Below, piece by piece: positions 20,115 through 38,516 of a stretch of DNA of 56,763 nucleotides. The DNA lies in NCBI RefSeq assembly GCF_900166665.1, contig NZ_LT800494.1:1265002-1321764 (forward strand), read 5' to 3'. The position numbers and the translations under genes are program-made. The notes beneath the pieces were generated by a model. It did not search any database. It was not told where the DNA came from and worked only from the letters and a program-made list of their open reading frames with translations. The first letter of the stretch is position 1; each line of letters begins with the position of its first letter. The DNA comes from Cytobacillus gottheilii (GTDB lineage: Bacteria; Bacillota; Bacilli; Bacillales; Cytobacillaceae).

Positions 20115-23030
20115 ATGAAGCAAATAAAGAAAGGCTTTCTACTATTATTGATGCTGCCATTGCTATTATCTATTCTTTTTTCTCCAGCGGGAGCGTCTGC
20201 AGCAGCAGATCCTCCGTCGGTAAACTTTTCGGCTAAAGCATCGCAGGAAATAATTGTTAAGCCACAAAACGCCGATGCCATTGGAGGGCTTGATCTTCAC
20301 CTTGTGCCAAAAGGAATGGCAACAAATCCTGAAAGAGATCCGATTGACTTAATCTTCATCTTTGACAAATCTGGTTCGATGAATGAATCGGGTAGAAATC
20401 CGAAAAAGTTTCAGGATGCAAAGGATGCCATTGATGAAGCGGTTGACTATTTTAAAGAGCATGGTCAACCTGGGGATCGTTTTGGGTTAGTTCCGTTTGA
20501 TACAAAAGTATCGGACAAAGTCGTTTATTTCTCAATCGAAGACTTTATATCAAATTTAAAAAAAATTCAATCCACAGTTGAAACACTATCAGCATCTGGC
20601 GGTACCAACTATACACAATCCTTTGAAATGGCACTTGGAATGCTTGGCGGCCAAACAGGAGGTGCAGCAAAGCCTGCTGATAATCAGTATGTTGTTTTCA
20701 TGACGGATGGAGAGCCGACGTTTTCTAATTATCATGAAGATATTACTTACACTAAAAAAGTATTTGTAAGGACTGAAAAAGTTTGTGTAAGCTCATTTTT
20801 AGGTTTTTGTCTTAGATATGAAGATAGGGATATATATGAAGACAGAAAAGTTACAGAAAGTGTACTGGTTTATAATGAAATATGGCAATATACAAATTCT
20901 GGAGTGGAATTTAGTGAAGTATATTACTATCTTAATGGAAGAAAGTATACTATTGACCAGGATGTTAATGAAACAAAACGCAGAATTAAACAGCACGGCT
21001 TAAATCTTGCTCAATCCTTCGCCCAAAAAGATATTAAACTCTATTCAATAGGCTTTGGAAGTAACAGTGAAGTGGATATGGATTATTTGCGTAAGCTTTC
21101 TTCTGTTACCGGCGTAACAGCCCGCCAAGCATCACAGGGGAATATATCAGAAGTTTTCCGGGCAATTTCCGGGGAAATCGATACACCTTCTATCAGCGGG
21201 GAAATTACAGTTGATCTAAACAAATTTAATGGAAAAGTTAAGCTGCAGGACGGTGCAAATGCTACCATTAATAATGGGATTGCAACGATCAAGTTTGATT
21301 TAAAATATCCATTAAACCAAAGTGCTCCGCAGCCAATTGATTTCTCTCTTCCACTAAGCTTTACGGAAGCAGGAGACTATGTATTTGATAATATTAAACT
21401 TTCATATAGGGATATTGATGGCAACGCGGTTGCACCAATCACACATACACCAGTCAAAATTTCTGTAAAAGACGATGCGGCACCAAGTATGTTTGGTGAA
21501 ATGAGTTTAAAGGGTGTCATTAATAATCCTGATAACCTGATTAAAGTTTCTGGTTCAAATGAAAGAACAAATGAATTTAACGTTAATTACTCTTTAACTC
21601 CAAATGGATTATTTAACAGCCAAGTGAACGGGAATCTATCAAATATACAAATTGTTCAGCCACTGCCAAGTGGAGTTTCTCTGATTCCTTCTGATGGAGT
21701 AAAGCTTATTACAGGACAAGATGGACGTCCGGCAGCACAAATTACACTAGGTCAGTCAATTAACTATGCTTCCGGAAAGTTTTCACCAAACAGTTTAGCT
21801 GCCTCCTTAAACCTAAAAGGAGACTATGCGCTAAATAACGTGAAGATGCCAACAGCATATGTTACGTACAAAGACAGTCGTTTTGGTGAACAGCAGGCTT
21901 CCATTGCACCGGCAAATCAGTTTATTAACCTAAGAGTGCGTTTGAACGAAATGGGCGGCAAGGCTTATGATGGCTATGCATCTGGGGTTATTAATAAAGT
22001 TGATTTAAATAACAATAATGCAGTATTGGCCCAAACAGAGTTTCCAAATGATTATGGATTAAAGCCTAAGCCAATTAAGGATATGGAGTTTGTTGGTGAT
22101 CGAAATACAGCTATTAAGATTACGTATTCTGATAATGATGAAGTGACAATCTATTTGACTCCAGACTTTGAAATGACAGGCCAGGATAGCGGCACTGTAT
22201 ACAAGGATGGAGACGTTACAAATGAAAAGGTCAATGTAGATGTTACACAGCTTGTTGCAGGTAAAGGTGTAAAATATTATTACTCTATTGAGAATCCTGC
22301 CGGCAATCTAGGATGGACAGAATTTGACCCTTCAAAATCCATTGTACTCGATGAGATAGGCAAAAATACGATCAGAATAAAAGGAGAAGGCGGATTTGCT
22401 TATAATACGCCTGTTGAAAAGGATATCACGCTTCAAGTTCCGATTGAATCAATCAATGTATCGCCAAATCCGTTGGAAATGGAAGTAGATGAAGTTAAAT
22501 CCTTTACGGTTAACATTTCTCCGCTAAATGCATCTAATAAAGATCTTGATATTTATATCGAAGATCAGAATATAGCTGAATACAAAGGGGATATGAGAAT
22601 TATCGGTAAAGCGGAAGGCGAAACCTATTTAGTAGTCAAAGCGAAAGATGGCTCTGGTATAACAGTCAGGGTGCCGGTAATTGTTAAGGACGCTTATATT
22701 GCATTAAAGGAAATTAAGTTTATCAAGTCTGTGTTCAAAATTGAAGAGGGTGAAGAGATTGCTCTCAGCGATGTGCTAATCTTTAACCCAAATAATGCAA
22801 CAGACAAAGAAATTGAATCTCTGCTGTCTAATCTGCCAGATAAAGTTTCGGTAAGAAAAGAAGGATCAGAATGGTATATAATCGGTGAAGAAATCGGGTA
22901 TTCCACGATTACAGCTGAAGCTGAAAAACAGAGAGATCAATCAAAACCAAAGGCATCTGCTTTATTTGAAGTAGGACCTGAGGGAGAAAACCCTGACAGC
23001 GGCGGCTCAAACGGGGCAGGACGCTGGTAA
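20115..23030 (+). CDS. Secreted VWA-domain protein with Ig-like repeats, putative pilus adhesin
   Basis: A 971-residue exported protein. The signal peptide covers residues 1-31 (Lys-rich, long Leu stretch, AxA-type end at GASAA). A von Willebrand A domain spans about 70-360, with the MIDAS motif D84-K-S-G-S88, 'SGGTNY' and 'MTDGEPTF', so metal-dependent adhesion is plausible. The rest is beta-rich, including a bacterial Ig-like (Big_2) segment from about 778 ('VSPNPLEMEVDEVKSF'). There is no LPXTG anchor and no C-terminal membrane helix. AAGGAG 8 bases before ATG 20115 supports the start. It converges on the minor-pilin genes; VWA proteins act as tip adhesins in several type IV pili, which is the basis for the role proposed. 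Confidence 0.85.
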   Translation: MKQIKKGFLLLLMLPLLLSILFSPAGASAAADPPSVNFSAKASQEIIVKPQNADAIGGLDLHLVPKGMATNPERDPIDLIFIFDKSGSMNESGRNPKKFQDAKDAIDEAVDYFKEHGQPGDRFGLVPFDTKVSDKVVYFSIEDFISNLKKIQSTVETLSASGGTNYTQSFEMALGMLGGQTGGAAKPADNQYVVFMTDGEPTFSNYHEDITYTKKVFVRTEKVCVSSFLGFCLRYEDRDIYEDRKVTESVLVYNEIWQYTNSGVEFSEVYYYLNGRKYTIDQDVNETKRRIKQHGLNLAQSFAQKDIKLYSIGFGSNSEVDMDYLRKLSSVTGVTARQASQGNISEVFRAISGEIDTPSISGEITVDLNKFNGKVKLQDGANATINNGIATIKFDLKYPLNQSAPQPIDFSLPLSFTEAGDYVFDNIKLSYRDIDGNAVAPITHTPVKISVKDDAAPSMFGEMSLKGVINNPDNLIKVSGSNERTNEFNVNYSLTPNGLFNSQVNGNLSNIQIVQPLPSGVSLIPSDGVKLITGQDGRPAAQITLGQSINYASGKFSPNSLAASLNLKGDYALNNVKMPTAYVTYKDSRFGEQQASIAPANQFINLRVRLNEMGGKAYDGYASGVINKVDLNNNNAVLAQTEFPNDYGLKPKPIKDMEFVGDRNTAIKITYSDNDEVTIYLTPDFEMTGQDSGTVYKDGDVTNEKVNVDVTQLVAGKGVKYYYSIENPAGNLGWTEFDPSKSIVLDEIGKNTIRIKGEGGFAYNTPVEKDITLQVPIESINVSPNPLEMEVDEVKSFTVNISPLNASNKDLDIYIEDQNIAEYKGDMRIIGKAEGETYLVVKAKDGSGITVRVPVIVKDAYIALKEIKFIKSVFKIEEGEEIALSDVLIFNPNNATDKEIESLLSNLPDKVSVRKEGSEWYIIGEEIGYSTITAEAEKQRDQSKPKASALFEVGPEGENPDSGGSNGAGRW

Positions 23031-23049
23031 AAAGAGAAGTCAGAACAGT

Positions 23050-23084
23050 AAAAAACGCCTTGCATGATATGCAGGGCGTTTTTT
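23050..23084. terminator. Bidirectional terminator between VWA gene and minor-pilin operon
   Basis: AAAAAACGCC (23050-23059) pairs with GGCGTTTTTT (23075-23084). The loop itself contains TGCAT/ATGCA. It serves both converging units. Confidence 0.9.
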
Positions 23085-23108
23085 GTATTGCTTATATAGC
23101 TAGCTTTT

Positions 23109-25121
23109 TTACTCCACGATCAACTCATCAGAGAATACCTGCAGCTGCTCTACAATTGGCAGTGCTTCAATTCTTTGCAGCAGGACATCTTGATTATAAT
23201 TCACGATAAAACGAGAGTAATAATCTTCCTGATTATTTGGCAACTGTGTTATGGTACTTACTATTCCGCGTATCGCGTTAATGGTTAATGCTTCTTTCGC
23301 AAACAAGCCGCCTTCTATATAAAAGAGTGATCCGACTCCATATAATTCAGCGTCCTTTTCAGTATAGAAAAATCCTTTCAGCGGCTTTACTGTATTGTTT
23401 TCCCTTGGCAAATAAGGAAGTCCTTCTTCTTTTTCTGGTGTGTAATTGTCAAACTCATTAATCCTCGTAATTAACAAATCATCATGTACAAGCAGGACAA
23501 TTTGCTTCGTATTGTTTTCTGCACCAATAATATTAACATTGGATATGCTTGCCTTCTCCCCGGTGTATACGACAGAATCAAACATGACTTGATCATCTTC
23601 TCCGCCTTGATCATTCTCATCTCCAACAATCGTCAAGTTTGCATTACTAATCATATTGCTCTGAATATCAATCGTTGTCGAATAGGGTTTAAGCAAAATA
23701 TCTTCTCCAGACACGATGTCACCAGCTACTTTTAGTCCGCTGTTTTCCACAGAAGATGCGTTATTTTCATAGGACTCTAGCTCAACATTCTTTGCACCGA
23801 TAATATTGCGGTCCGCACGTAACGTTCCAGTCATATTAATGATATGAATATCACCTGTCGCGAGAATGTCACCTTTAAATGTCATATCTTCATAGCTGAC
23901 TAAATATAGGTCACCGTCTACTACAAGCTGCTCACGGAATATAATGGGGTAATTTGTGCTCATAACGACAAGGTCGCCATTCACCTTTAAAGGATCTTCA
24001 AAGTCCATTGCTTGCTCTGCACTTTCAATAATAAAGCTATTATCAAGAGGAGCAGCGGTTTCGCCTACAATTGAAAGGGGATTTGGCTGAACGTCTACTT
24101 TCTCCACATACCCATCACTTCCGACAATTTGTCTGCTTGGCGAAGTGCTCCTGATGGCTGAAGTTAAGCTTTCAGAGAAGTCAGAGTCATTACCCATCCT
24201 AATGGCCGATAATTTACTGTCTGTTAAAATCGAATTGGTGAGTTCGTTCATCGATTTTTGGAACTGAATGTTAATGAATTGACTGTCATGTTTTAAATCT
24301 GGAATTTGTTCTTTATAAAAATTATCTTCTTTTAAGAGAGGCAGCAAATTGGCTGAACTGCTAAAGATATCACCTGTTATCGAAGACATTTCTGTATCCT
24401 GCGTCTTCTCTGTGCCGTCACGCAGTTCAAACTCTGCTTCCTCTTGAATATGAAGATGATTTGCATATACATTTCCGTTGAAATTGGCAGAGCCATTTAA
24501 CTTGAAGCCTTTGGACTCATCCTCAGAGAATGAACCGGCTGCATACTTCAGAAAGCTTGGGAGCGGAGAAAGAATTAATCTTTTTTTAATGGTTCTGGTT
24601 ACTTTTCCTTCTGTTTCAATTGGGTTTTTTGTTACCAGTACAACATCGAGTATTCTAGTAAAATCAAGATCTTTATCAATGTTAAAAGGAGCATCATAGT
24701 TTGTAAGACTGCCTACACATGCGTGACTGTTATCCAGGTACGATGGTGAACCTGTACTGACATCAATTACATTCATACATTCGATGTAATCTGCTGAGCG
24801 ATTGGGTTCAAGAATCTGCTCCACAATGGCGTGTTCTAAGACATCGTCAAATCGCCTTTCTACATATAAGTGATGATTGCTGTCCCAACGTCTGAAATTT
24901 TCCAGGTTCAATTCATCTTCACCAAGCAGCTCTGGAAGTGTACTGGTCATTTCGTTCAGCAATTTCAATGCATCATACGTATAAACAACATCACTTTCCC
25001 TTGTTTCGGTTCTTTTTGCACCCCCAATAGATGCAGAGACAACGGCCATGCCCAAAACAGTAAAAACGAGTGAAACAAGTAACACGATAATTAGGCTATT
25101 GCCTTGTTCGTTTTTAATCAT
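23109..25121 (-). CDS. PilX-like minor pilin with long beta-helix-like body
   Basis: A 670-residue protein. The N-terminus 'NEQGNSLIIVLLVSLVFTVLG' is a PilX-type hydrophobic pilin helix (no Glu at +5, as is usual for PilX). From about residue 365 on there are repeated short strands such as 'VNGDLVVMS', 'VDGDLYLVS', 'FKGDILATGDIHI' and 'LRADRNIIGAKNVEL', the pattern of a beta-solenoid or bactofilin-like fold. PilX proteins are normally around 150-200 residues, so this is a large fusion-type form. AAAGGAGAG before ATG 25121 supports the start. It is the third and last gene of a minus-strand minor-pilin operon. Confidence 0.75.
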   Translation of the reverse strand: MIKNEQGNSLIIVLLVSLVFTVLGMAVVSASIGGAKRTETRESDVVYTYDALKLLNEMTSTLPELLGEDELNLENFRRWDSNHHLYVERRFDDVLEHAIVEQILEPNRSADYIECMNVIDVSTGSPSYLDNSHACVGSLTNYDAPFNIDKDLDFTRILDVVLVTKNPIETEGKVTRTIKKRLILSPLPSFLKYAAGSFSEDESKGFKLNGSANFNGNVYANHLHIQEEAEFELRDGTEKTQDTEMSSITGDIFSSSANLLPLLKEDNFYKEQIPDLKHDSQFINIQFQKSMNELTNSILTDSKLSAIRMGNDSDFSESLTSAIRSTSPSRQIVGSDGYVEKVDVQPNPLSIVGETAAPLDNSFIIESAEQAMDFEDPLKVNGDLVVMSTNYPIIFREQLVVDGDLYLVSYEDMTFKGDILATGDIHIINMTGTLRADRNIIGAKNVELESYENNASSVENSGLKVAGDIVSGEDILLKPYSTTIDIQSNMISNANLTIVGDENDQGGEDDQVMFDSVVYTGEKASISNVNIIGAENNTKQIVLLVHDDLLITRINEFDNYTPEKEEGLPYLPRENNTVKPLKGFFYTEKDAELYGVGSLFYIEGGLFAKEALTINAIRGIVSTITQLPNNQEDYYSRFIVNYNQDVLLQRIEALPIVEQLQVFSDELIVE

Positions 25122-25132
25122 ATTGCTCTCCT

Positions 25133-26198: not shown

Positions 26199-26349
26199 TC
26201 GTTTCCCTTCTTTCATTCTTGATGATTATATTATACAATATTTCTTATGATTTACTGTTTTTTTAGGACAATTTACATTGTTTTCTATTATTTTTCGACA
26301 ATGTTAGCAATATTATGAATCTTTTATCCTATACTAGAGAGGTGAAACG

Positions 26350-27762
26350 ATGATTAGCTTCATTTTAGCTGCAATTTCCCTGATCGTCATCATTCCACTC
26401 GTGTTTTATTTGCCGCTCGGTTTAACGAAAAAAGGAAAAGTGATGATGACTGTTTTATCCTTTTCATTCGCACTTCTAGGCATAGCGGCACAATCGGTGA
26501 TGGAACTATGGAAATTGTTATTATTACTTCTGCTGCTGGTTGTTATGAGTGGATATTTAATGATGAAAAGAAGCGAGCAATTTCTATCCGCAGAAGCAGC
26601 TGCAGACACTTCTTATTCCTTTTACAGTCAGGAAAATCAACAAGAGTATGCACAGCAGGAAACAGAAGAGGTTTTATCTCCAATTAAGGAAGATGAATAC
26701 CCCGCTGAGAATATAGAAGATGATGTCCTGGAAGTATTAGAAACAGAAAGCACACTGCCGGTTTCGGACGTGTTGCTTCCACTGGCAACAGAGTCAGAGG
26801 TAGAAGCAGAACCAGAAACAGAAACAGAGGAAGCGCAGCTTGATGAAATTGATTTCGAACAAATTCGTTTAACGGAAATTGCTGAAGACAACGAGCCGCT
26901 CTCCTTAATCGAACAAGAACCGTCAATTCAATCTGCTGGCCCAGAGCTATCCTATATTGGCGAATTAGAGTCACTCATGTCTGATGAGAATCCTGTAAAG
27001 CCGGTTGAACAGGTGGTACAGGAAGAAACTCCTATTCAGATAGAAGAAAATGAATTTAGTCTTGGACTGCCATTAGAGGATGATGATTATATTATCCCGG
27101 CAGTAGTTGAAAATGAGACAAGCCTATCAGTGGAAGAAGTACAGGCATCTACAGAACTAGAAAGCGATTTGGTGGAAGACGATTCACTGGCTGAACCTTC
27201 ATTAGAAGAGAGGCTAGAGGATATTGATGTCTCTCTTGAAGAAATGAATGAACAGCAAGACTTAGAAGTCATTGATTTTGAAAAAGAAGAAGAAAGTCTG
27301 CCTGCTGAGACCGAAGAAAAGGCTGTTATCGAAAAAGATGAAATTCTCTTAGGTTTTGAAGAAACAACTGAAGAAGAGCCTGTCCTTGAGGAAGATGGTG
27401 CAGAGCCATGGCTTGAAGCGGCAACATCCTCTGATTCCAGTGAAGAGCAGCAAGAACAAGAAGAAAATAGCACACTTCAAAGAGAAATGCTGAAAACCCT
27501 TCTTGAGCAGCTGCAATTGGCTAAAGAAACAACGGAGCCACATATATATGAAAAATGGATTCAGCAATGCATGCAGCAAAAAATGCCTCCAAAAGAGCAT
27601 TACATTTTTGCTAGCCTGCTGATTGAACACTATATCGCACAACAAGAGAACCAAAAACTAGTAACACTGCTAAACGGTCTAAAAAACCAATACGCCGACA
27701 TGCCAATCATCTCAGAACAAATCCAATTTTTACTACTTTCATATTCCAACAAGGAACAGTAA
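26350..27762 (+). CDS. Acidic membrane protein of the pilus locus, unknown
   Basis: A 470-residue protein that I do not recognise. Residues 1-72 contain three hydrophobic segments (about 3-21, 29-47, 52-68). Then comes a long Glu-rich, low-complexity region (about 90-375) that must be largely unstructured and very acidic. The last 85 residues look helical ('LQREMLKTLLEQLQLAKETTE' onward). A similar plan, membrane anchor plus acidic spacer plus terminal domain, occurs in proteins that reach across the envelope. It is divergently placed to the minor-pilin operon, sharing a 151-base promoter region. TATACT at 26330-26335 is a possible -10. Confidence 0.7.
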   Translation: MISFILAAISLIVIIPLVFYLPLGLTKKGKVMMTVLSFSFALLGIAAQSVMELWKLLLLLLLLVVMSGYLMMKRSEQFLSAEAAADTSYSFYSQENQQEYAQQETEEVLSPIKEDEYPAENIEDDVLEVLETESTLPVSDVLLPLATESEVEAEPETETEEAQLDEIDFEQIRLTEIAEDNEPLSLIEQEPSIQSAGPELSYIGELESLMSDENPVKPVEQVVQEETPIQIEENEFSLGLPLEDDDYIIPAVVENETSLSVEEVQASTELESDLVEDDSLAEPSLEERLEDIDVSLEEMNEQQDLEVIDFEKEEESLPAETEEKAVIEKDEILLGFEETTEEEPVLEEDGAEPWLEAATSSDSSEEQQEQEENSTLQREMLKTLLEQLQLAKETTEPHIYEKWIQQCMQQKMPPKEHYIFASLLIEHYIAQQENQKLVTLLNGLKNQYADMPIISEQIQFLLLSYSNKEQ

Positions 27763-28875: not shown

Positions 28876-30258
28876 ATGAAGAAATCAGATAGTGCTAAAT
28901 TATATATTATCTTACTTGTTAGCACAGCGTTTATTTTTAGTTTTTCATACTTTGGCACTGCTGTTTATGGGAATGTTACGGGAAGTAAGGGTGTTTATAC
29001 AGAGAAGACAATGGTAGGATCCGTTGATATCACGGGTTTAACACGCCAAGAAGCATATGATCAAGTTCTGCAGAGCACCATACTTTGGCAGGAGCAAAGC
29101 ACTCTTACTTTTAACTATAAAGAAAAAGACGAACAAGTGGAATTATCTATTTTTTCTTTTGATGTAGAATCTTCAATGCAGGCCGTTAAGGAAGGCGGAA
29201 GCTATCCTTTGCTTGTAGAAGTAAATGAAGAAGACCTGGCACTTAAGCTTCTAGAAATGTCTCCAGAATTAACCTCTGAAGACTTTCAGGAAGAAAAACT
29301 AAAAACAGAACTGCTTAATGCGGCTTCAGTGCTGCATACTGGCAGCCAGACGATGAAGCTGCAGACATTCTTTGCTCAAACAGAAGAGAATCAAGTCGTA
29401 GCTGAAGCGACTGTATCAGCTGATGGAGTATATGAAAGTTTGGAAAAATGGACACAAGCTGCGAGTCAAATAGAAATTGAGCCCCAATCACAGCTTTCTC
29501 TACTAAAATATGTAGATGAAAACGGGTTAACGTCTTCTTTTAGCAGTGATACATTGAGCTATATTGCGTCTGCCATGTATAAGACGGTGCTGTCAACCAA
29601 TTTCCTTATTTCAGAGCGCCATATTAGCAGACTGCTGCCAGCATATGCAGAAGCAGGCTATGAAGCAAAAGTAGATCCTGCTAAGAATATGGATTTTATT
29701 ATTTCAAATACAAACGATAGCTCTTTTACCCTTGAATTTAAGCTTATAGATAATCATTTTCACGTATCATTGAAAGGCTCGCCATTTTTATATGAATATA
29801 GTCTTTCTCTAGAAGATAAAGAAGTATTTAAGCCAAAAACGATTGTGCAATATGATGCCAAGCTGAGGTTCGGTGAGGAAAAAACGGTTTCCGAAGGCAC
29901 GGATGGTGTCATCATTAAATTGTACCGTGAAGTAAAGGAACCATCGGGCAGCATCCTTCGAAAAGAGTTTATTTCGGATGACTTTTACCCGCCTGTTCAT
30001 AAAGTTATCGTCAAGAGTTTAATAGCGAACACCCAGCCTAATGGTTCGGACAACAATGGTACGGACATCAATTCAGCAGATACATCGATTGAAGACGAAA
30101 CGGGTTCGGAAGAAGATGTAAATGCAGATCCTGCAGATGATCTGAGGGACGAAGAAGAAACAGCAGATTCTGAAACTGGCTCGGATGAAGAAGCTCAGAA
30201 CGCTGGCAAAAAGAATGAAAATGATTTATGGGGTCACGAGAAAGAAGCAGTAAAATAA
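28876..30258 (+). CDS. Membrane-anchored YoaR/PG_binding_4-like protein
   Basis: A 460-residue protein with one N-terminal membrane helix (about residues 8-30) and an extracellular part. 'VGSVDITGLTRQEAYDQVLQ' (about 47-66) resembles the start of PG_binding_4 domains found in YoaR/VanW-type proteins, but no VanW domain follows. The last 70 residues are acidic and low-complexity. It is placed directly before pilB with a 22-base gap, suggesting a role in passing the pilus through the cell wall. That role is inference from position and the weak domain match. Confidence 0.6.
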   Translation: MKKSDSAKLYIILLVSTAFIFSFSYFGTAVYGNVTGSKGVYTEKTMVGSVDITGLTRQEAYDQVLQSTILWQEQSTLTFNYKEKDEQVELSIFSFDVESSMQAVKEGGSYPLLVEVNEEDLALKLLEMSPELTSEDFQEEKLKTELLNAASVLHTGSQTMKLQTFFAQTEENQVVAEATVSADGVYESLEKWTQAASQIEIEPQSQLSLLKYVDENGLTSSFSSDTLSYIASAMYKTVLSTNFLISERHISRLLPAYAEAGYEAKVDPAKNMDFIISNTNDSSFTLEFKLIDNHFHVSLKGSPFLYEYSLSLEDKEVFKPKTIVQYDAKLRFGEEKTVSEGTDGVIIKLYREVKEPSGSILRKEFISDDFYPPVHKVIVKSLIANTQPNGSDNNGTDINSADTSIEDETGSEEDVNADPADDLRDEEETADSETGSDEEAQNAGKKNENDLWGHEKEAVK

Positions 30259-30280
30259 TGAGGTTAAAGCAGGGATATAG

Positions 30281-31945
30281 ATGACTCAAGTGCGTAAAAG
30301 ATTAGGAGACTTGCTCGTCGATGCAGGATTAATAACGGAAGAACAGCTGCAGCTGACGCTAAAGGAAAAGAGCAGCGGTCAAAAGCTTGGAGATGCTCTC
30401 CTGCAGCGCGGTTATGTGACAGAGCAGCAGCTGATCGAAGTCTTGGAGTTTCAGCTTGGCATTCCGCATGTAAGCTTGTACCGCTATCCATTTGATACGA
30501 ATCTATTTAGCATTGTTCCCAAGGATATGGCGAAAAGAAACTTAATTATTCCAATGAAAAAAGATGGAGATAAGTTATATGTAGCAATGGCTGATCCGAT
30601 GGACTTTTATACGATTGATGATCTTCGGCTATCAACAGGCTTTCAAATTGAAACAGCTATTGCGACAAAAGACGATATCCTGCGCGCTGTTAATAAGTAT
30701 TACGATATGGATGAAGGCCTGGAGGAATTATTCGGAACTTCACCTGCACATACAGAAGAAGTAGAACAGGAAAAAATCGTTGACCAGGATTCTCCGATTG
30801 TCCGTCTTGTAAATCAAGTATTAACGAATGCTGCCGTCGTAAAGGCAAGTGACGTGCATATTGATCCGCAGGAGACAAAGGTGGTCATCCGCTATCGTGT
30901 GGATGGCATACTCAGAACGGAACGGGTTCTGCCTAAGCATATGCAAAGTGTCCTTACAGCAAGAATTAAAATTATGGCCAATCTTGATATTACAGAGCAT
31001 CGCATTCCTCAGGACGGCCGTATTAAGATGAACTTGGATTTTCATCCGGTTGACTTGCGTGTATCCACATTGCCCACTGTATATGGTGAAAAAATTGTTA
31101 TGCGTCTTCTTGATCTCGGAAGTACGCTGAATGATATTAATAAACTGGGCTTTAACAAGGTAAACCTGCAGCGCTTTACTGATATGATCGAAAAACCAAC
31201 GGGCATTGTTCTTATTACAGGCCCAACCGGTTCTGGTAAATCGTCTACTTTATATGCTGCTTTAAACAAGCTGAATAGCGAAGAAGTGAACATTATTACA
31301 GTAGAAGATCCTGTTGAGTACCAGCTTGAAGGCATCAATCAAATTCATGTGAATTCAAACGTCGGCATGACCTTTGCAGCTGGACTGCGCGCCATACTCC
31401 GTCAAGATCCGAATATTATCATGGTCGGGGAGATTCGTGATAAGGAAACAGCTGAAGTTGCCATCCGTGCTTCCTTAACAGGACATCTTGTGTTAAGCAC
31501 GCTGCATACAAATGATTCGATAGGCACCATTACGAGATTAGTAGACATGGGTGTCGAGCCTTTCCTTGTAGCATCTTCATTAAGTGGTGTAGTGGCACAG
31601 CGTCTTGTCAGAAGAGTGTGCCGTGACTGTGCGAAAACAATGGAGCCATCGAAACGGGAGATTGAGATTTTTGCCAAAAGAGGCATGAAAATCGAACAGG
31701 TTGTAAAAGGGGCCGGCTGCTCCTCCTGTAATATGACAGGTTATAAAGGCCGTGTCGCTATTCATGAAGTTTTAGTTGTAGATGATGTAATGCGCCGTGT
31801 GATTATGAATGGAGAGTCTCTCTCGAAATTACGAGAAATTGCGATTCGAAATAAAACAATTTTCCTTGTAGATGATGGCTTAATCAAAATCAAACAAGGG
31901 ATCACAACAACAGAAGAGGTGCTAAGAGTAGCACTACCTGATTAG
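30281..31945 (+). CDS. pilB: Type IV pilus assembly ATPase PilB with MshEN N-terminus
   Basis: Hexameric ATPase that powers pilus extension at the inner face of the membrane. The C-terminal half has Walker A 'GPTGSGKSS' (about 313-321), Asp box 'VEDPVEYQ', Walker B 'IIMVGEIRD' and His box 'TLHTND'. A zinc site follows, with two CxxC pairs at about 447/450 and 479/482. The N-terminus has two tandem 24-residue motifs beginning RLGDLL (residue 7) and KLGDAL (residue 35), the MshEN pattern known to bind c-di-GMP in other bacteria. The spacer here is four residues and the first motif ends in Lys rather than Gln, so binding needs testing. It has 554 residues. It is followed by pilT. Confidence 0.94.
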   Translation: MTQVRKRLGDLLVDAGLITEEQLQLTLKEKSSGQKLGDALLQRGYVTEQQLIEVLEFQLGIPHVSLYRYPFDTNLFSIVPKDMAKRNLIIPMKKDGDKLYVAMADPMDFYTIDDLRLSTGFQIETAIATKDDILRAVNKYYDMDEGLEELFGTSPAHTEEVEQEKIVDQDSPIVRLVNQVLTNAAVVKASDVHIDPQETKVVIRYRVDGILRTERVLPKHMQSVLTARIKIMANLDITEHRIPQDGRIKMNLDFHPVDLRVSTLPTVYGEKIVMRLLDLGSTLNDINKLGFNKVNLQRFTDMIEKPTGIVLITGPTGSGKSSTLYAALNKLNSEEVNIITVEDPVEYQLEGINQIHVNSNVGMTFAAGLRAILRQDPNIIMVGEIRDKETAEVAIRASLTGHLVLSTLHTNDSIGTITRLVDMGVEPFLVASSLSGVVAQRLVRRVCRDCAKTMEPSKREIEIFAKRGMKIEQVVKGAGCSSCNMTGYKGRVAIHEVLVVDDVMRRVIMNGESLSKLREIAIRNKTIFLVDDGLIKIKQGITTTEEVLRVALPD

Positions 31946-31957
31946 GAGTAAAACGGT

Positions 31958-32998
31958 ATGGTGAATAAAATTGATTTGCTTCTGAAGGCAGGCTTTGAGC
32001 TAAAGGCATCAGATATTCATCTCACGGTTGGAGTTCCGCCGATCATGAGAATCAATGGAGATTTAAAACGCTACGGACAAGATGCTCTTTTACCGGCAGA
32101 TACGGAAAGCATGGCCCGGACCGTCATTCCGGAACATTTATGGAACACATTTAAACAAAATGGCGAGCTGGATTTCTCGTATGGACTTCATGGCGTTTCG
32201 CGTTTTAGGGTGAACGCATATCATCAGCGATCCTGCGTGGCGCTGGCTGTCCGTGTGGTCCCGACGAAAATTCCTTCAATGGATGATCTTGATTTGCCGT
32301 TAATCCTGAAAGAAATCGCAGCTAAGCCGCAGGGTCTTGTGCTGGTAACAGGACCTACGGGGAGCGGTAAATCAACTACACTTGCTTCCATGATCGATTA
32401 TATGAATCAGACGATGCGCAAGCATGTGATCACATTGGAAGATCCGATTGAATACTTGCATAAGCATGGAAAATGCATCATTGATCAGCGCGAGGTTGGC
32501 TTTGATACGAATAACTTTGCGAATGGGTTAAGAGCCTCTCTTAGACAGGATCCAGATGTCATCCTAGTTGGGGAGATGAGAGATCTTGAAACCATTCAAA
32601 CCGCTATTACTGCAGCTGAGACAGGACATTTAGTGTTTGCAACCTTGCATACATCAAGTGCACCGGCAACCATCAACCGGATTATTGATGTTTTTCCGCC
32701 GGCACAGCAGGACCAGATTCGCATTCAACTTGCATCCGTACTTGTCTCGATTGTGTCGCAGCGTCTATTTCCGCTTGTGAATGGAAATGGAAGAAAGGCG
32801 GCTACTGAAATATTGCTTAATAATGCGGCTGTCGCTAACCTCATTCGCAATGAAAAAATTCATCAGATTGTGAATGTGATGCAAACATCACGGAGTCAGG
32901 GCATGCACACATTGGAGACAAATGTGAAGGAACTCTATCAGGCTGGCCTCATTTCAAAGGAACTCGCCAACCCTTATTTAGTTGAGAAGGTGGAATAG
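31958..32998 (+). CDS. pilT: Type IV pilus retraction ATPase PilT
   Basis: ATPase that depolymerises the pilus for twitching and DNA uptake. Walker A 'GPTGSGKST' (about residue 131), Asp box 'LEDPIEYLH', Walker B 'VILVGEMRD' and His box 'ATLHTSS' are present. A C-terminal segment 'NAAVANLIRNEK' corresponds to the AIRNLIRE retraction motif. With 346 residues it has the usual PilT length and lacks the MshEN and zinc parts of PilB. Its presence argues for a retractile type IVa pilus rather than a com pseudopilus. Confidence 0.95.
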   Translation: MVNKIDLLLKAGFELKASDIHLTVGVPPIMRINGDLKRYGQDALLPADTESMARTVIPEHLWNTFKQNGELDFSYGLHGVSRFRVNAYHQRSCVALAVRVVPTKIPSMDDLDLPLILKEIAAKPQGLVLVTGPTGSGKSTTLASMIDYMNQTMRKHVITLEDPIEYLHKHGKCIIDQREVGFDTNNFANGLRASLRQDPDVILVGEMRDLETIQTAITAAETGHLVFATLHTSSAPATINRIIDVFPPAQQDQIRIQLASVLVSIVSQRLFPLVNGNGRKAATEILLNNAAVANLIRNEKIHQIVNVMQTSRSQGMHTLETNVKELYQAGLISKELANPYLVEKVE

Positions 32999-32999
32999 T

Positions 33000-34205
33000 A
33001 TGCCTCGATTTAAATATAGCGGAAGAGACCGTAAAGGAAATAAGTCAGGTGTTATAACAGCTTCTTCAAAACGTGAGGCAGTGATGCAGCTGAGGGAAAA
33101 TGGCATTCGTGTCATGGACTTTCAGGAATTGCCTGAAACAGTTCTAACGAAGGATATCTCGATAGGCAACCCAGTGAAGCTTGAGGATTTTGTCATCTAT
33201 CTGCGGCAATTTTCGACGTTGCTGAAGGCTGGCGTTTCAGTTGTCGAATCGACCGCCATTCTTGCCGAGCAAACGGAAAGCAAAGCATTAAGGAAGGCTT
33301 TAAAGGTAGTCGAACAGGACCTTCGGGAAGGAAATCCGCTTTCTGATGCAGCGGCTAAGCATAAGAAGATCTTTACAAGTATGTTTATTAATATGATCCG
33401 TGCCGGAGAAGTGGGCGGTAATATGGATGATACACTCGAGCGGCTTGCAGTTCATTATGAAAAGCAGCATTTTACGAAGCAGAAAATTGTCTCAGCGCTC
33501 GCTTACCCAATTGTGGTCGGCATCATTGCTGTTGCGGTTGTCATCTTTTTGCTTGTATCGGTTGTTCCGACCTTTGTCGAGATGTTTGAGGACTTTGGCG
33601 GGGAGCTGCCTGCAATTACTCAGTTTGTCTTGAAATCAAGTGAGCTGATGCAGGTGTATTGGTGGCTTGTTATTCTTCTATTTATCGCATTTGCGGTAGC
33701 AATCGTTTTGATTCGAAATAATAAACAATCAAAATATTATTTAGATTACTTTCTGTTAAGAATGCCAGTGTTCGGTAAGATTTTTCAAAAAGCAGCTTTA
33801 GCACGTATGACGAGAACACTTAGTTCGCTCTTTACATCATCCGTTCCGATTCTGCAGGCAATGACCATTGTCGAAAATATTGTTGAAAATGAAGTCATTG
33901 CAAAAGTCATCCGCCAATCAAGAGATTCATTAGAACAGGGGCGATCATTAACCGAACCAATGCGCAGGCACTGGGTCTTTCCACCTCTTGTCTCGCAAAT
34001 GATTGCAATCGGTGAGGAAACGGGATCCCTTGACGCCATGCTCACGAAAGTAGCCGATTTCTATGAAAAAGAAGTTGAAAGCGCAACAGACCGATTGAAA
34101 TCCCTGATTGAACCAATCATGATTGTCTTCCTTGCAGGAATTGTCGGAACCATCGTTACCTCTATTATGGTGCCAATGTTCGAGATCTTTAACCATGTCG
34201 GATAA
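33000..34205 (+). CDS. pilC: Type IV pilus inner-membrane platform protein PilC
   Basis: Polytopic platform that links the ATPases to the pilins (T2SSF/GspF family). Two homologous T2SSF domains cover about residues 63-190 and 265-390, with membrane helices at about 168-190, 215-237 and 370-392. The conserved 'RQFSTLLKAGVSVVES' and 'MIAIGEETGSLDAML' are visible. The ATG at 33000 is chosen over 32982 because GAGAAGGTGG lies about 8 bases before it and MPRFKYSGRDRKG is the normal PilC start. It has 401 residues. It starts one base after pilT. Confidence 0.94.
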   Translation: MPRFKYSGRDRKGNKSGVITASSKREAVMQLRENGIRVMDFQELPETVLTKDISIGNPVKLEDFVIYLRQFSTLLKAGVSVVESTAILAEQTESKALRKALKVVEQDLREGNPLSDAAAKHKKIFTSMFINMIRAGEVGGNMDDTLERLAVHYEKQHFTKQKIVSALAYPIVVGIIAVAVVIFLLVSVVPTFVEMFEDFGGELPAITQFVLKSSELMQVYWWLVILLFIAFAVAIVLIRNNKQSKYYLDYFLLRMPVFGKIFQKAALARMTRTLSSLFTSSVPILQAMTIVENIVENEVIAKVIRQSRDSLEQGRSLTEPMRRHWVFPPLVSQMIAIGEETGSLDAMLTKVADFYEKEVESATDRLKSLIEPIMIVFLAGIVGTIVTSIMVPMFEIFNHVG

Positions 34206-34261
34206 CTATACAATATTTTTACAATTTCAAACAATTTCCTACTAGCGCAAATCTATGATTC

Positions 34262-34270
34262 TGTTATAAT
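34262..34270 (+). promoter_or_regulatory. Extended -10 promoter of pilA
   Basis: TG-T-TATAAT at 34262-34270, 50 bases before the pilA start, in the 114-base gap after pilC. It would let the major pilin be expressed above the assembly genes. No convincing -35 is seen. Confidence 0.55.
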
Positions 34271-34319
34271 AAGACTAGTAAAAAAGTAACATAAAAATCA
34301 CATTTTAAGGAGAATGAAC

Positions 34320-34775
34320 ATGTTTCAAAAACTAAGAAACACATTAAAAAATCAAAAAGGTCTAACACTTATCGAGCTTCTTGCTGTTATTGTTATTTTA
34401 GGGATTATTGCTGCGATTGCTATACCTAGTATTGGTGGGATTATTCAGGGATCTAAAGAAGATGCTGTTAGAGCGGATGCTATTACAGTATTAAATGCTG
34501 CTAAAATGCATGTTTCTTCAAATGGTGTTAGTGATGGAGCGACTACAACAATTACTAAGGATAATATTCTTGAATTTATTGATAATCCAGGTTCATTTGG
34601 TCAAGATGGATTAGTCTTTTCAGTAGTATATGATGGTACTAACTATGAATTAACTACTACTGGAAACGTGACTGCGGGTAATAAATCAATTAAGTTTACT
34701 GATGCTACAGTAAGTGGAATTGACGATACAGGATCACATACAGAAACAGACGATTTAATTACCATTTCAAATTAA
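34320..34775 (+). CDS. pilA: Major type IV pilin (prepilin)
   Basis: A 151-residue prepilin. The leader of 14 residues ends in NQKG and is cut before LTLIE (Glu at +5), followed by the canonical helix 'LLAVIVILGIIAAIAIPSI'. ATG 34320 lies 7 bases after AAGGAG, while ATG 34314 is only one base after it. The body is rich in Thr, Asp and Gly, with no Cys pair, so no disulfide D-loop. The coding sequence beyond the helix is visibly more A+T-rich than the neighbours, as expected for a fast-changing surface antigen. It has its own promoter and lies between pilC and pilD, which suggests it is the main subunit. Confidence 0.88.
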   Translation: MFQKLRNTLKNQKGLTLIELLAVIVILGIIAAIAIPSIGGIIQGSKEDAVRADAITVLNAAKMHVSSNGVSDGATTTITKDNILEFIDNPGSFGQDGLVFSVVYDGTNYELTTTGNVTAGNKSIKFTDATVSGIDDTGSHTETDDLITISN

Positions 34776-34783
34776 GGCTTCCA

Positions 34784-35527
34784 ATGTTAATAGCTGTATT
34801 CATCTACGGCCTCCTCCTAGGCTCCTTCTACAACGTAGTTGGCCTGCGAGTCCCGAACGGAGAGTCTATTGTAAAGCCGCGGTCACATTGTCCAAAGTGT
34901 GAACATGTTCTGTCCCCGCTTGAGCTTATACCGGTTATATCTTATGTATGTTTACGAGGACGATGCAGGTGCTGTAAGGCACCTGTTTCGCTCGTTTATC
35001 CGCTAATTGAATTGATGACCGGTTTGCTGTTTGTTGCAGCCCCACTCCTTTTGGGATGGAGTGCTGAATTATTGATTGCCTGGACGCTTATCTCGCTTAT
35101 CGTCATCATCTGGATCACCGATATTAAATATATGCTGATTCCAGATAAGATCCTGCTTGTATTTGCAATTATTTTAGTAGTTGAACGTATTTTTATTCCG
35201 CTTACACCATGGTGGGATTCCATTGCAGGTGCTGCAGTTGGCTTTGGTCTGCTGCTTTTCATTGCCGTGATCAGCAAAGGCGGCATGGGAGGCGGAGATA
35301 TTAAGCTTTATGGAGTTCTCGGAATCGCACTTGGCGTTAAGTTTGTCTTATTATCGTTCTTTATCGCAACTTTAATTGGTGCTGTATATGGCGGTTTGGG
35401 TTTGCTTTCAGGCAAGCTGAAAAGAGGAAACCCTATTCCGTTTGGTCCTTTTATTGGGATCGGTGCTTTGACGGCTTATTTTTTTGGCAATGACATTATC
35501 ACCTGGTATTTGCATTCACTATTATAA
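34784..35527 (+). CDS. pilD: Prepilin peptidase / N-methyltransferase
   Basis: Membrane aspartic protease that cuts prepilin leaders and methylates the new N-terminus (A24 family). The N-terminal domain keeps the two zinc CxxC pairs Cys36/39 and Cys61/64. The catalytic aspartates are Asp113 ('WITDIKYMLIPD') and Asp172 ('GGMGGGDIK'). It has 247 residues and several membrane helices. It is the orthologue of B. subtilis comC, which holds the same folC-spoIIB slot, but here it is embedded in a pilus operon. It starts 8 bases after pilA. Confidence 0.93.
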   Translation: MLIAVFIYGLLLGSFYNVVGLRVPNGESIVKPRSHCPKCEHVLSPLELIPVISYVCLRGRCRCCKAPVSLVYPLIELMTGLLFVAAPLLLGWSAELLIAWTLISLIVIIWITDIKYMLIPDKILLVFAIILVVERIFIPLTPWWDSIAGAAVGFGLLLFIAVISKGGMGGGDIKLYGVLGIALGVKFVLLSFFIATLIGAVYGGLGLLSGKLKRGNPIPFGPFIGIGALTAYFFGNDIITWYLHSLL

Positions 35528-35539
35528 GGAGTTTTGAAA

Positions 35540-36532
35540 ATGGCCTTTCGTTTGAAGCTGGGAAAACAATCAAATATTAGCCTGATCATAAAGGATCATG
35601 TTATTCGTTTAGCTGAAGTAAAGTCACATGGAGATCTGCAGATCCAGCGTTTAGAAGAACGATTTATTCCTGGTGGATTGATTAAGGAAGGCAGAATTCA
35701 GGATAGTGAAACACTAATAGCCATCTTAGAAGAATGTGTGAATGAATGGAAGCTGAAAAATAAACAAGTCACATTTTTAGTGCCAGATCCTTTTATTGTC
35801 ATGAGAAAGATCGCTATCCCTGCAGACGTGCATGAAGATGAATTAAAAGGCTACTTATTTATGGAGGTTGGAGCAACCATTCACCTTCCGTTTGAGGACC
35901 CAATATTTGATTATTACTTATTGCCGCAGCAGAACAATGAGCGCAAGGAAGTATTGCTTTTTGCCGCACCAGAGAGTGTGGTTTCTGAGTATACAGACAT
36001 TCTTGAAGAAGTCAAATTGAAGCCGGCAGCTGCCGACTTATCAGCACTATCCATCTATAGGCTGTATCATAAGCTGGATATGGCAAGCTCGGATGAAAAC
36101 TTAATGCTTGTTCAATATGATCTTACAACCGTTAATGTCAGTATATTTGAAAATCATATTCCCATCATTATGCGTCATTTGAAATTAGATCTGGATGCAT
36201 CGCAATGGGATAACGTTAAAGCTGAAAATGGCGGCAGGAAGCTTCATTATTCTGGTTCTGCAAATGATGTCGGCAGTTCTTTAATGGACAGTTATAAAGA
36301 AATCGATCGTGTTCGGGATTATTATCAATTTTCACTAACCCAAGGTAAAAAGAAGATTACGAAGATGGTCGTTGATGGTGATCATCCATACCTTGAAGAT
36401 ATATTTAAAGAAATGAAGGATCGTTATTCTGTTCCTGTTTTTACATTGAAAAACGATGTGATTGATAAAGGACATGCTGCTGACCTCGCTTCGTTTTATT
36501 TGAATATCGGATTAGCTTTAAAAGAGGTGTAG
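35540..36532 (+). CDS. pilM: Type IV pilus actin-like protein PilM
   Basis: Cytosolic actin-fold ATPase that binds the N-terminus of PilN and connects the platform to the ATPases. 'ISLIIKDHVIRLAEVK' near the start and 'VTFLVPDPFIVMRKIAIP' match the SHS2/PilM pattern. The ATG at 35540 is 8 bases after AAGGAG; TTG at 35534 is too near. It has 330 residues. It is three bases from pilN, which has the matching PilM-binding motif. Confidence 0.85.
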   Translation: MAFRLKLGKQSNISLIIKDHVIRLAEVKSHGDLQIQRLEERFIPGGLIKEGRIQDSETLIAILEECVNEWKLKNKQVTFLVPDPFIVMRKIAIPADVHEDELKGYLFMEVGATIHLPFEDPIFDYYLLPQQNNERKEVLLFAAPESVVSEYTDILEEVKLKPAAADLSALSIYRLYHKLDMASSDENLMLVQYDLTTVNVSIFENHIPIIMRHLKLDLDASQWDNVKAENGGRKLHYSGSANDVGSSLMDSYKEIDRVRDYYQFSLTQGKKKITKMVVDGDHPYLEDIFKEMKDRYSVPVFTLKNDVIDKGHAADLASFYLNIGLALKEV

Positions 36533-36535
36533 AAG

Positions 36536-37177
36536 ATGTTAGTCGATATTAATCTGCTTCCGCAAAAAGAGAAAAAAACCAAAGCTTCTTATATCGTCCT
36601 TCTAGCTTCTTTGCTGATTGTACTGCTTATAGCTGCTGTATTCTTTTTCATTATCCAGGATCGTAAGCAGACCATAGCTAATACAGAGCAGCAGCTGGAG
36701 CAAACGACTGAACTGCTTGAGGCAAAACGGGCAAAGCTGGAAAACTATCAGTCTTCCAATTCTGTGACCGACTTGCAGAATGCTATTACCTGGGCAGATC
36801 ACCAGCCTTATGATGTCGTCTATATGCTGCAGGAGCTGACGAAGCTTTTGCCTGAACGCGGATTTATCAGTGACTTCGAAATGGATGGAGACAATGGGGT
36901 CAACCAGCAGGTTCAATTCGATACGAAATCAGAAGCAGCATATTATTTGAACTTGCTGACCTCTGTCGAATGGATTGAGGAAGCAGTGCTTACAGAAGCA
37001 CAAACAGCTGACTTAACTGATGAAGAGAATGAAGCTGCAGCAAGTGATGACATTGTACCAAGGTATATAGCGAATTTCGAGATGAGAATCAATGTGCCCG
37101 CATTGAAGGAGGCCAATCCGTCAGAGAAAGAAGAAGAACTAGAAAGCAGCGAGGATGAAGGAGGCACTTCACCATGA
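36536..37177 (+). CDS. pilN: Type IV pilus assembly protein PilN
   Basis: Bitopic membrane protein of the alignment complex. It begins MLVDINLLPQKEKK, containing the INLLP motif that docks into PilM. One membrane helix follows (about 18-40), then a coiled-coil stretch (about 45-75) and a ferredoxin-like extracellular domain. The C-terminus is acidic. It has 213 residues. The stop overlaps the pilO start (ATGA at 37174-37177). Confidence 0.88.
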   Translation: MLVDINLLPQKEKKTKASYIVLLASLLIVLLIAAVFFFIIQDRKQTIANTEQQLEQTTELLEAKRAKLENYQSSNSVTDLQNAITWADHQPYDVVYMLQELTKLLPERGFISDFEMDGDNGVNQQVQFDTKSEAAYYLNLLTSVEWIEEAVLTEAQTADLTDEENEAAASDDIVPRYIANFEMRINVPALKEANPSEKEEELESSEDEGGTSP

Positions 37178-37968
37178 ATGTACAACTTTCAAAAAAACAG
37201 CTAGGATTTGGTTTTCTGGGAATCGTTGTCATTGGCCTTCTCGTTTTTGCAAGCTACTATTTGTTTATTCTGCCGCTGAATGATCAAATTGACCGAAAAA
37301 CCACTGAATTGGACATGGCGAGACAGGAGCTCGACATCATTGACAATACACTGAGCCAAAGCAGTGAGCAGACCGTTCTGAATACGATGGAGCTGCAAAA
37401 GCAAGTACCTGTTAAGCGTTTGCTCGACCAGCTGCTTCTGAATGTAGAGAAAGCAGAAATCGTGTCGGATGCAACGATTAATGAAATCCAGCTGAATGGC
37501 ACACAGGAAGATGAAAATGTGGATTTAATCAGTGAGGATGGAACGGTACAATATGATCCTGAATCCGAAGATGAGGAAGCTGATCCCGAGGAAATCACTG
37601 AAGAAGATGCTGAATCAGGTGAAACATCTGAAACAGTCACTCCATTGCCAAACGGCATTAAAAGAACATCTCTGACGTTGTTCGGAGAGTCAGATTCTTA
37701 TTTTGAATTAGAAAAGCTGCTGGAGAATCTTTTATCCATGGAGCGCATCATCAAGATTGAGGAGCTGAACTTTACCGGACTTCAAGAAGTCTATTCTGTC
37801 GAACAGGATACAAGCAATGTCGAATTTGAAATTACATTAGCTGCTTATTATTATCCAGCACTTGAAGATTTACAGGCGGAGCTTCCTCCACTGGATGCGC
37901 CAGCTGGGTCGAATAAAAACGATCCGCTCAATCGTTTTTCCAGTGAAGAAGAGGATGGAACACCTTAA
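37174..37968 (+). CDS. pilO: Type IV pilus assembly protein PilO
   Basis: Bitopic partner of PilN. Membrane helix at about residues 10-33, then a coiled coil (about 38-65) and an extracellular domain. The middle (about 110-150) carries an acidic insertion rich in Glu and Asp not seen in standard PilO. It has 264 residues. The assignment rests on position after pilN, topology and the 4-base overlap; the sequence itself is weakly conserved in this family. No PilP or PilQ follows, as expected without an outer membrane. Confidence 0.8.
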   Translation: MNVQLSKKQLGFGFLGIVVIGLLVFASYYLFILPLNDQIDRKTTELDMARQELDIIDNTLSQSSEQTVLNTMELQKQVPVKRLLDQLLLNVEKAEIVSDATINEIQLNGTQEDENVDLISEDGTVQYDPESEDEEADPEEITEEDAESGETSETVTPLPNGIKRTSLTLFGESDSYFELEKLLENLLSMERIIKIEELNFTGLQEVYSVEQDTSNVEFEITLAAYYYPALEDLQAELPPLDAPAGSNKNDPLNRFSSEEEDGTP

Positions 37969-37981
37969 AGATATTTTCTGA

Positions 37982-38016
37982 GAGAGGGGATGTGAAGATC
38001 ATTCATCATCCTCTCC
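37982..38016 (+). other. Hairpin between pilO and second pilin gene
   Basis: An imperfect stem, GAGAGG-GGATG with CATCCTCTC, without a T run. It may be a processing or partial termination site between the pilMNO genes and the last pilin. Confidence 0.3.
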
Positions 38017-38063
38017 ATCGCTATTAGTTAAAAATACTGCTGCTAAAAAAGAGGGGTCTAGTC

Positions 38064-38516
38064 ATGATCAAACTGAATACTAGACTAAATGAAAAGGGAC
38101 TTACATTAATAGAACTGCTTGCAGTGATTGTCATTTTGGGCATTATTGCGGCTATAGCGGTTACGTCTATCATGAATGTCATTCAAAAAGCACGTGATCA
38201 GGCATTTGTGGGCAATGCCATTGCTTTAAAAGAGGCTGCTGACTTTTATATTCGCCATGAATTAACAAGCGGTGGGACACTCCAGGCTACTGTTTCTTAT
38301 AAGATGCTTGAAGAGCAGCGGTTTATTGATGCTTTTAAAGACCCGCACAGCGGCGAGCAGCTTGAGCCATCGGATGATACATATGTTGTGATAACAGGGG
38401 AATCAGCCACAGCCGTATGCTTAAAAGGAACAGAGAAAAACCTTTGCACGTACAAAGGTGCTGAAAATGCAATCCCTATCAGTGATTTAATCACAGCCAA
38501 TATAGTGCCGAATTAA
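38064..38516 (+). CDS. Second type IV pilin (prepilin)
   Basis: A 150-residue prepilin with leader MIKLNTRLNEKG cut before LTLIE. Its helix 'LLAVIVILGIIAAIAV' is nearly identical to that of pilA. The body differs from pilA and contains Cys119 and Cys128 near the C-terminus, a spacing suited to a small disulfide-bonded D-region loop. It could be a minor or alternative major pilin. It closes the pilus operon and is followed by a strong terminator before spoIIB. Confidence 0.85.
   Translation: MIKLNTRLNEKGLTLIELLAVIVILGIIAAIAVTSIMNVIQKARDQAFVGNAIALKEAADFYIRHELTSGGTLQATVSYKMLEEQRFIDAFKDPHSGEQLEPSDDTYVVITGESATAVCLKGTEKNLCTYKGAENAIPISDLITANIVPN

Follow-up and report, generated by a model that had tools for sequence, protein, structure and literature searches.

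A type IVa pilus locus in the folC–spoIIB slot of Cytobacillus gottheilii and the solitary comC of its relatives

Why should a chromosomal slot that holds only the prepilin peptidase gene comC in Bacillus subtilis hold an entire pilus locus in a related spore former? The question is raised by a 56,763-nucleotide stretch of the Cytobacillus gottheilii assembly GCF_900166665.1 (contig NZ_LT800494.1, positions 1,265,002 to 1,321,764, forward strand; hereafter the window), in which a type IVa pilus locus fills the interval from folC to spoIIB-maf and all genes are open frames. The best explanation, which we regard as probable, is that the locus encodes an intact retractile type IVa pilus, that its prepilin peptidase PilD likely also matures the pilins of ComG and Flp systems, and that pilD stays behind as comC where the pilus has been lost.

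Intact pilus genes and a probably shared prepilin peptidase

In the host genome (4.78 Mb in 4 contigs; completeness 100, contamination 5.36), the genes that follow folC encode a GAF-GGDEF diguanylate cyclase, a secreted VWA/immunoglobulin-like (Ig) protein, three minor pilins (on the opposite strand), an acidic membrane protein, a PRC-barrel protein, a VanW/G5 protein, PilB, PilT, PilC, PilA1, PilD, PilM, PilN, PilO, and PilA2 (Table 1). Downstream lie a gene in the position of spoIIB, which is without a Pfam match, and then maf, radC, and mreB. The features of a type IVa system are present: PilB, PilC, a prepilin peptidase, class III pilins, a dedicated retraction ATPase (PilT, above the curated cut-off of TIGR01420), and the alignment proteins PilM and PilN (above cut-off) and PilO (slightly below it, in the expected place). 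PilA1 and PilA2 both exceed the Pfam cut-off for N_methyl; the 202- and 670-residue minor pilins, which match no pilin family, are called from N-terminal sequence and gene order, the larger one also from its structural model. No gene for the secretin PilQ was detected among the locus genes in the profile scan, and a genome-wide search for it was not made; this secretin is a type IVa feature of diderms and is not expected in a monoderm. Each pilus gene named in a preliminary description of the window proved to be an open frame at its place, with the families confirmed by Pfam and NCBIfam (PilO just below cut-off) except for the two minor pilins without a family match; the cyclase, acidic membrane, PRC-barrel, and VanW/G5 genes had been omitted there.

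The near relative chosen for a gene-by-gene comparison was locus L072 (C. gottheilii); PilM of the window is 93% identical to that of C. gottheilii FJAT-2394. From the cyclase to pilA2, no gene contains an internal stop, and the ratio of nonsynonymous to synonymous substitution rates (dN/dS) lies between 0.006 (pilB) and 0.262 (acidic protein) for 16 genes out of 17; pilA1 stands at 0.64. The genes of the locus are intact and under purifying selection, so that the pseudogene check did not refute the earlier reading. Together they specify a complete, undamaged machine of the type IVa kind, for which pili and their retraction are predicted. The locus is not comG; a complete run from comGA to comGG lies elsewhere in the genome, and the earlier distinction between the pilus locus and the com system is upheld.

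PilD is the single match to Peptidase_A24 (PF01478) in a genome that also carries a Tad locus, consisting of cpaE, cpaF, and, as identified by eye, two proteins resembling TadB/C and a small one resembling Flp. Since it is the sole peptidase found beside a complete comG and a Tad locus, PilD is very likely shared by the pilus, competence, and Flp/Tad systems. A24_N occurs exactly once in all 36 genomes of the genus and in 148 of 150 genomes of the order (one has two, one has none), although this profile would miss TadV-type enzymes; the search with Peptidase_A24 covered the host genome only. The preliminary description had suggested that the peptidase may serve competence if comG genes exist elsewhere; comG was found complete, and a search for a second prepilin peptidase in the genome returned none. 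The sharing of prepilin peptidases between such systems is already known (PMC6668835). The ComC/ComG competence pilus likewise depends on one prepilin peptidase, ComC (PMC10790768; PMC3244431), but differs in that the com system is described as lacking counterparts of the remaining Pil proteins, PilT, PilM, and PilN among them (PMC3244431); these three are present in the window locus.

The folC–spoIIB slot and the origin of comC

The slot was compared across 115 stretches of at most 20 kb, of which 26 were centered on PilT in the host family (outside the genus), 15 on PilT in the genus, and 20 on PilT in the order or class; another 14 came from genus genomes without PilT above the cut-off (13 centered on the peptidase, plus genome G049), and 40 were centered on the peptidase in the order. 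The latter were taken from 149 genomes with a match; most families contributed a single locus, and a few comC-only loci were added. Because the 115 loci were hand-picked, their proportions are not population estimates. PilB, PilT, and PilC are all present in 84 loci, all absent from 28, and incomplete in 3. The 40 peptidase-centered order loci comprise 23 full, 2 partial, and 15 without pil genes, and slot-flank genes are found in 22 of the 23 full and 13 of the 15 empty ones. Full loci with folC or valS in the stretch represent 22 families, those with spoIIB, maf, radC, or mreB represent 23, and both slot states (full pil and comC-only) occur within five families. Among the 28 empty loci, 24 have folC and spoIIB, maf, or radC around pilD. 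One of these, L159, is close to B. subtilis, as judged from its Maf, which strongly matches the solved B. subtilis Maf structures 1ex2 and 4heb. The preliminary description had implicitly treated comC alone as the norm; the comparison across relatives that it proposed points instead to a pilus slot reduced to comC.

The genus itself provides evidence for such a reduction. Of the 14 genus genomes in which PilT does not reach the cut-off, 13 have kept pilD but no pil locus, 11 with both slot flanks in view and two (L094 and L098) with only the downstream side, and the remaining one (L101, from G049) is partial, retaining pilins, PilM, PilN, and PilO but no PilB or PilT and only a scrap of PilC. 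When 26 comC-only slots, with pilD and the cyclase masked, were searched with the pil proteins of full loci (E ≤ 1e-3), broken pil scraps were found beside an intact pilD in five slots, all of them in the genus (5 of 13 genus slots). The scraps stem from pilC, pilA1, and pilO in L094; a minor pilin, pilT, pilC, and pilA1 in L095, where those of the minor pilin and pilT overlap on opposite strands; pilC and pilA1 in L097; pilA2 in L099; and, weakly, pilA2 in L089 (E 2e-4). Their positions keep the order of the intact locus around pilD. Reversed slots gave no scraps (0/26), and the rest of the same loci gave only distant VanW genes (4/26).

Because these scraps stand in intact order beside an intact pilD, they are read as erosion of pil that spared pilD, and the "loner" comC is likely best read as a stranded pilD left after the decay of pil. 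The loss of pil in other lineages would strand pilD as comC, and the comC-only slot of B. subtilis-like genomes would be where the same process ended. Such a stranded gene would account for the position of comC, which is described as a distant loner for the Com pilus in Streptococcus sanguinis (PMC10790768). If true, comC lies far from comG because competence leans on the peptidase of a lost or neighboring motility pilus, and the fates of pili and competence are tied via one gene. A limited literature search, which is no proof that none exists, found no statement of such an origin in the sources as far as they were accessible.

Partial loci are represented by L101, L135, and L143, which encode PilM, PilN, and PilO without a full PilB-PilT-PilC set; L135 has a PilT piece of 136 residues and no slot flank. 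In the pil-less genome of L099, the cyclase homologue in the slot is split into three frames.

Several observations weigh against erosion as the general direction. Scraps at E ≤ 1e-3 are missing from 8 of the 13 comC-only slots of the genus and from all 13 outside it, so that the case for loss in slots without scraps, including those of B. subtilis-like genomes, rests on the shared slot and synteny. In 2 of the 28 pil-less loci (L126 and L158), pilD lies outside the slot, and 5 of the 84 full loci show no slot-flank gene. The PilD tree (107 rows) requires 18 label changes, 4 of which are forced by firmly supported branches, but it is weakly supported (24 of 104 inner branches starred), its long branches meet, and it does not separate gain from loss.

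A tree without direction would also suit an ancestral slot with comC alone, around which many lineages acquired pil loci by transfer. In Paenibacillus, a pil cluster reported on a predicted mobile element (PMC9765702) is in line with such insertions, as are L074, L081, and L087, where a different pil gene order occupies the same folC–spoIIB slot; replacement or transfer therefore does happen. By contrast, insertion does not predict that 5 of the 13 comC-only genomes of the genus have broken pil genes next to an intact pilD, and both the existence of partial loci (L101, L143) and the recurrence of the run pilB-pilT-pilC-pilA1-pilD-pilM in the slot across many families argue against it, which makes this alternative unlikely. 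In L074, L081, and L087, the slot was perhaps taken over by a second pilus type. The order in these loci and in L105, which has no slot flank, is pilA-pilD-pilins-pilM-pilN-?-pilB-pilT-pilC.

Relative to the expectation from FolC, conservation of PilD is reduced in pil-less genomes outside the family (median residual −5.7, n = 12, vs −0.2, n = 20; p 0.005), but no such shift was detected inside the family (2.3, n = 11, vs 1.4, n = 36; p 0.71); these statistics, which are not corrected for kinship, give only a hint of a faster drift of PilD after pilus loss.

Pilus loci of this kind are not rare. In the host family, 159 of 193 genomes encode PilT above the curated cut-off, as do 22 of 36 in the genus and 170 of 299 drawn evenly from the class. 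Rarity of the locus, which the preliminary description had called unusual, is therefore rejected, the more so because pil operons were published in 2011. PilM_2 alone, with matches in 191 of 193 family genomes, was set aside as a pilus marker because its weak matches appear, from frame lengths, to include other actin-like ATPases, and PilT with its curated cut-off was used instead. Imam et al. reported pil operons in Bacillus sp. NRRL B-14911 (together with tad and com in one genome), two Geobacillus species, and Exiguobacterium, and recorded pilT in a number of Gram-positive pil operons (PMC3244431). Their systems resemble the present one in combining a pil operon with com, and in the first genome also tad, within one Bacillales genome, but the folC–spoIIB slot, the pil remnants beside comC, and the VWA/long-PilX cassette are not described in the accessible part of that study. 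Paenibacillus thiaminolyticus became less virulent in mice when several of its pil genes were deleted (PMC9765702). The locus is thus ordinary for its family, and what is new is the reading of the slot; it would open a large set of spore formers to the study of retractile pili without an outer membrane.

A candidate tip adhesin and a presumably exposed fiber

The gene for the VWA/Ig protein is convergent with pilVWX. A Pfam scan (E 0.01) of the protein matched only VWA families and Big_2, with neither a pilin module nor the beta-propeller of PilY1. Its N-terminus resembles an ordinary signal peptide by eye, the residues of the metal site (D84, S86, S88, T164, and D198) are invariant in 40 sequences, and a C-terminal tryptophan is present in all 49 near-full-length homologues (P0001–P0049). 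The structural model has a predicted local distance difference test score (pLDDT) of 85.9; PilY1 is absent from the VIA-align rows listed for it, which is not taken as evidence. PilX is modeled as a long helix followed by a beta-helix. It has no sequence match in PDB, and its best Foldseek match, the ComZ pilin (6qvi), is weak (E 6e-4, template-modeling score 0.15), with other beta-helices scoring as high. The VWA protein probably represents a tip adhesin of a new kind.

The alternative, a secreted or wall protein of the usual sort that has nothing to do with the pilus, would agree with the signal peptide and the missing pilin match, and also with the 60 of 84 full loci in which no VWA gene was found (12 of these end before folC/valS). 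Yet all 24 loci with the VWA gene also hold a PilX of at least 200 bits (a line drawn after seeing the scores), and the gene occurs in none of the 28 pil-less loci. The converse has exceptions in only 3 of 84 loci: the stretch of L145 ends 696 bases beyond PilX, L048 has an Ig protein in the place of the VWA protein, and L130, a point in favor of an unrelated protein, combines a long PilX with no VWA gene within 2.2 kb beyond. Because a test for independent pairs found only one on firmly supported branches, no significance is claimed for the pairing of VWA and long PilX. On balance, a protein unrelated to the pilus seems rather unlikely. An ankyrin-like protein (by eye) of about 280–305 residues lies beside the PilX cassette in L107, L108, and L080, and its cut end in L145.

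Three known systems offer parallels for the putative adhesin and its pilin. ComZ of Thermus thermophilus is a pilin with a large beta-solenoid that is argued to sit at the tip (PMC6561018); PilX, too, may be a pilin that carries a beta-solenoid, as its model predicts, but it has no sequence match to ComZ, and the fold match is weak. The type IVa pilus of S. sanguinis is also that of a monoderm and likewise combines PilT with a VWA adhesin that has a metal site, but there the VWA domain is fused to a pilin (PMC8179133), whereas in the window it belongs to a separate secreted protein. The PilC/PilY1 adhesins are non-pilin proteins, some with VWA, that are presented by minor pilins (PMC8179133); the VWA protein of the window differs in having no propeller match and, instead, an Ig-like stalk and an aromatic C-terminal tail.

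In the mechanism that we propose, PilB would extend and PilT would retract a surface fiber formed by PilA1, which PilV, PilW, and the solenoid PilX would prime and cap at the tip. The secreted VWA/Ig protein would dock there, perhaps via its aromatic tail, and act as an adhesin that depends on metal; wall-side or positioning roles would fall to the VanW/G5 and acidic membrane proteins, and PilD would mature the pilins of the pilus, ComG, and Flp. The joint proposal, namely that the lone comC is the stranded pilD of an eroded ancestral locus for a retractile pilus, kept as the only peptidase of the ComG pilins, and that a secreted VWA/Ig protein without pilin or PilY1 module represents a third kind of tip adhesin, docking onto a beta-solenoid pilin by an aromatic tail, is tentative and has somewhat less than even chances of being right in all its parts.

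The variability of PilA1 is what would be expected of an exposed fiber. From residue 46 onwards, PilA1 is 34–67% identical in all 12 hand-picked sister pairs (L071 was used twice), in which PilB is 86–100% identical; between the window and C. gottheilii, the values are 35% and 99.6%. PilA1 is not always the most divergent protein: in L068/L069 and L077/L082 the identity falls further for pilV or pilW, and in L083/L084 for the acidic protein. Since synonymous change in PilA1 is often raised too, fast change and allele exchange may both act. This variability would fit a major pilin that lies exposed on the surface and is under pressure exerted by phages or the environment. Pilins that serve only DNA uptake or secretion, without a long surface pilus, are very improbable: the top Foldseek hit for PilX, ComZ, is a competence pilin that binds DNA (PMC6561018), but the genome has its separate comG run, PilT is present and highly conserved, PilA1 is hypervariable, and the VWA protein is similar to adhesins of pilus tips. 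In L050, L051, and L086, two or three minor-pilin cassettes lie 5′ of the pil operon, and pilV/pilW are only 24–40% identical in the sister pairs L068/L069 and L077/L082, as if cassettes had been swapped.

Accessory genes and other features of the window

Three accessory proteins follow the pilus and are candidate parts of a monoderm pilus. Homologues of the VanW/G5 protein occur in 73, of the acidic membrane protein in 57, and of the PRC-barrel protein in 28 of the 84 full loci (lower bounds, as stretches end early), and none of them in the 28 pil-less loci. The VanW/G5 protein, the acidic membrane protein, and the putative VWA adhesin are named candidates for deletion tests. The cyclase is not a dedicated pilus gene, because it is kept in 10 of 28 pil-less loci, besides 47 of 84 full ones; the RYGGEEF site is kept by 39 of the 43 long homologues from full loci and by all 9 from pil-less loci.

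A dedicated circuit of cyclic diguanylate (c-di-GMP) with the neighboring cyclase is weakened by this retention and by 20 GGDEF matches in the genome (19 above cut-off). No c-di-GMP riboswitch was detected 5′ of the pilus genes in a search of window positions 12000–43000 against Rfam (E ≤ 1), which found only a T-box. Control of PilB by c-di-GMP is possible. The MshEN receptor motif consists of two 24-residue copies with a spacer of 5 (PMC5013675). The motif in PilB is imperfect: copy 1 ends in K, copy 2 starts with K and has an internal Y, and the spacer is 4 instead of 5. With a relaxed pattern, one copy matched in 64 of 82 homologues and both in none.

Table 1. Features between folC and the spoIIB position in the window (positions count from the first nucleotide of the window).
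Feature	Position	Strand	Evidence and remarks
GAF-GGDEF diguanylate cyclase	17958..19676	+	Open frame from 17937; Pfam GGDEF 140.7 bits, GAF_2; between folC and pilus genes
VWA/Ig-like secreted protein, predicted pilus-tip adhesin	20115..23030	+	VWA 54 bits, Big_2 23.2 bits; C-terminus ...GAGRW
Terminator-like hairpin between convergent units	23048..23086		18 pairs, with an A-run and a T-run at opposite sides
PilX/GspK-like minor pilin, 670 aa, predicted beta-solenoid	23109..25121	-	Pilin-like N-terminus without usual E5; model pLDDT 83.2
PilW-like minor pilin, 202 aa	25133..25741	-	N-terminal GATLYELL and position; no Pfam match
PilV-like minor pilin, 179 aa	25677..26216	-	N_methyl 23.9 bits; PilV family 32 bits, below cut-off 52.2
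Acidic membrane protein, 470 aa, pilus-associated	26350..27762	+	No Pfam/NCBIfam match
PRC-barrel protein, 251 aa	28094..28849	+	PRC 45.8 bits
VanW-like/G5 protein, predicted wall-side pilus component	28876..30258	+	G5 30 bits, VanW 26.5 bits (cut-off 27)
PilB extension ATPase with MshEN domain	30281..31945	+	T2SSE 449.9 bits, MshEN 78.1 bits
PilT retraction ATPase	31958..32998	+	TIGR01420 478.8 bits (curated cut-off 319.1); T2SSE 163.6 bits
PilC platform protein	33000..34205	+	T2SSF 220.3 bits
PilA1, probable major pilin	34314..34775	+	N_methyl 34.5 bits
PilD prepilin peptidase	34784..35527	+	A24_N 114.7 bits, Peptidase_A24 73 bits
PilM	35540..36532	+	PilM_2 70.3 bits
PilN	36536..37177	+	PilN 24 bits, above cut-off 22.8
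PilO	37174..37968	+	PilO 19.5 bits, just below cut-off 22; expected position
PilA2, second pilin	38064..38516	+	N_methyl 30.2 bits; 91.3% identity to C. gottheilii

Terminator-like sites are not enriched overall (11 vs a shuffle mean of 13.7), promoter-like sites are uninformative (51 vs 50.5 in shuffles), and the minor-pilin/VWA cassette contains only short two-copy repeat pairs. Elsewhere in the host genome, two GGDEF matches of equal score (G000:C4:2383578-2384051 and 3304183-3304656) and two T2SSE matches of equal score below the cut-off (3235837 and 3238909) are each perhaps the result of a duplication. The T-box leader (135.4 bits) lies at 13536-13776, directly 5′ of valS.

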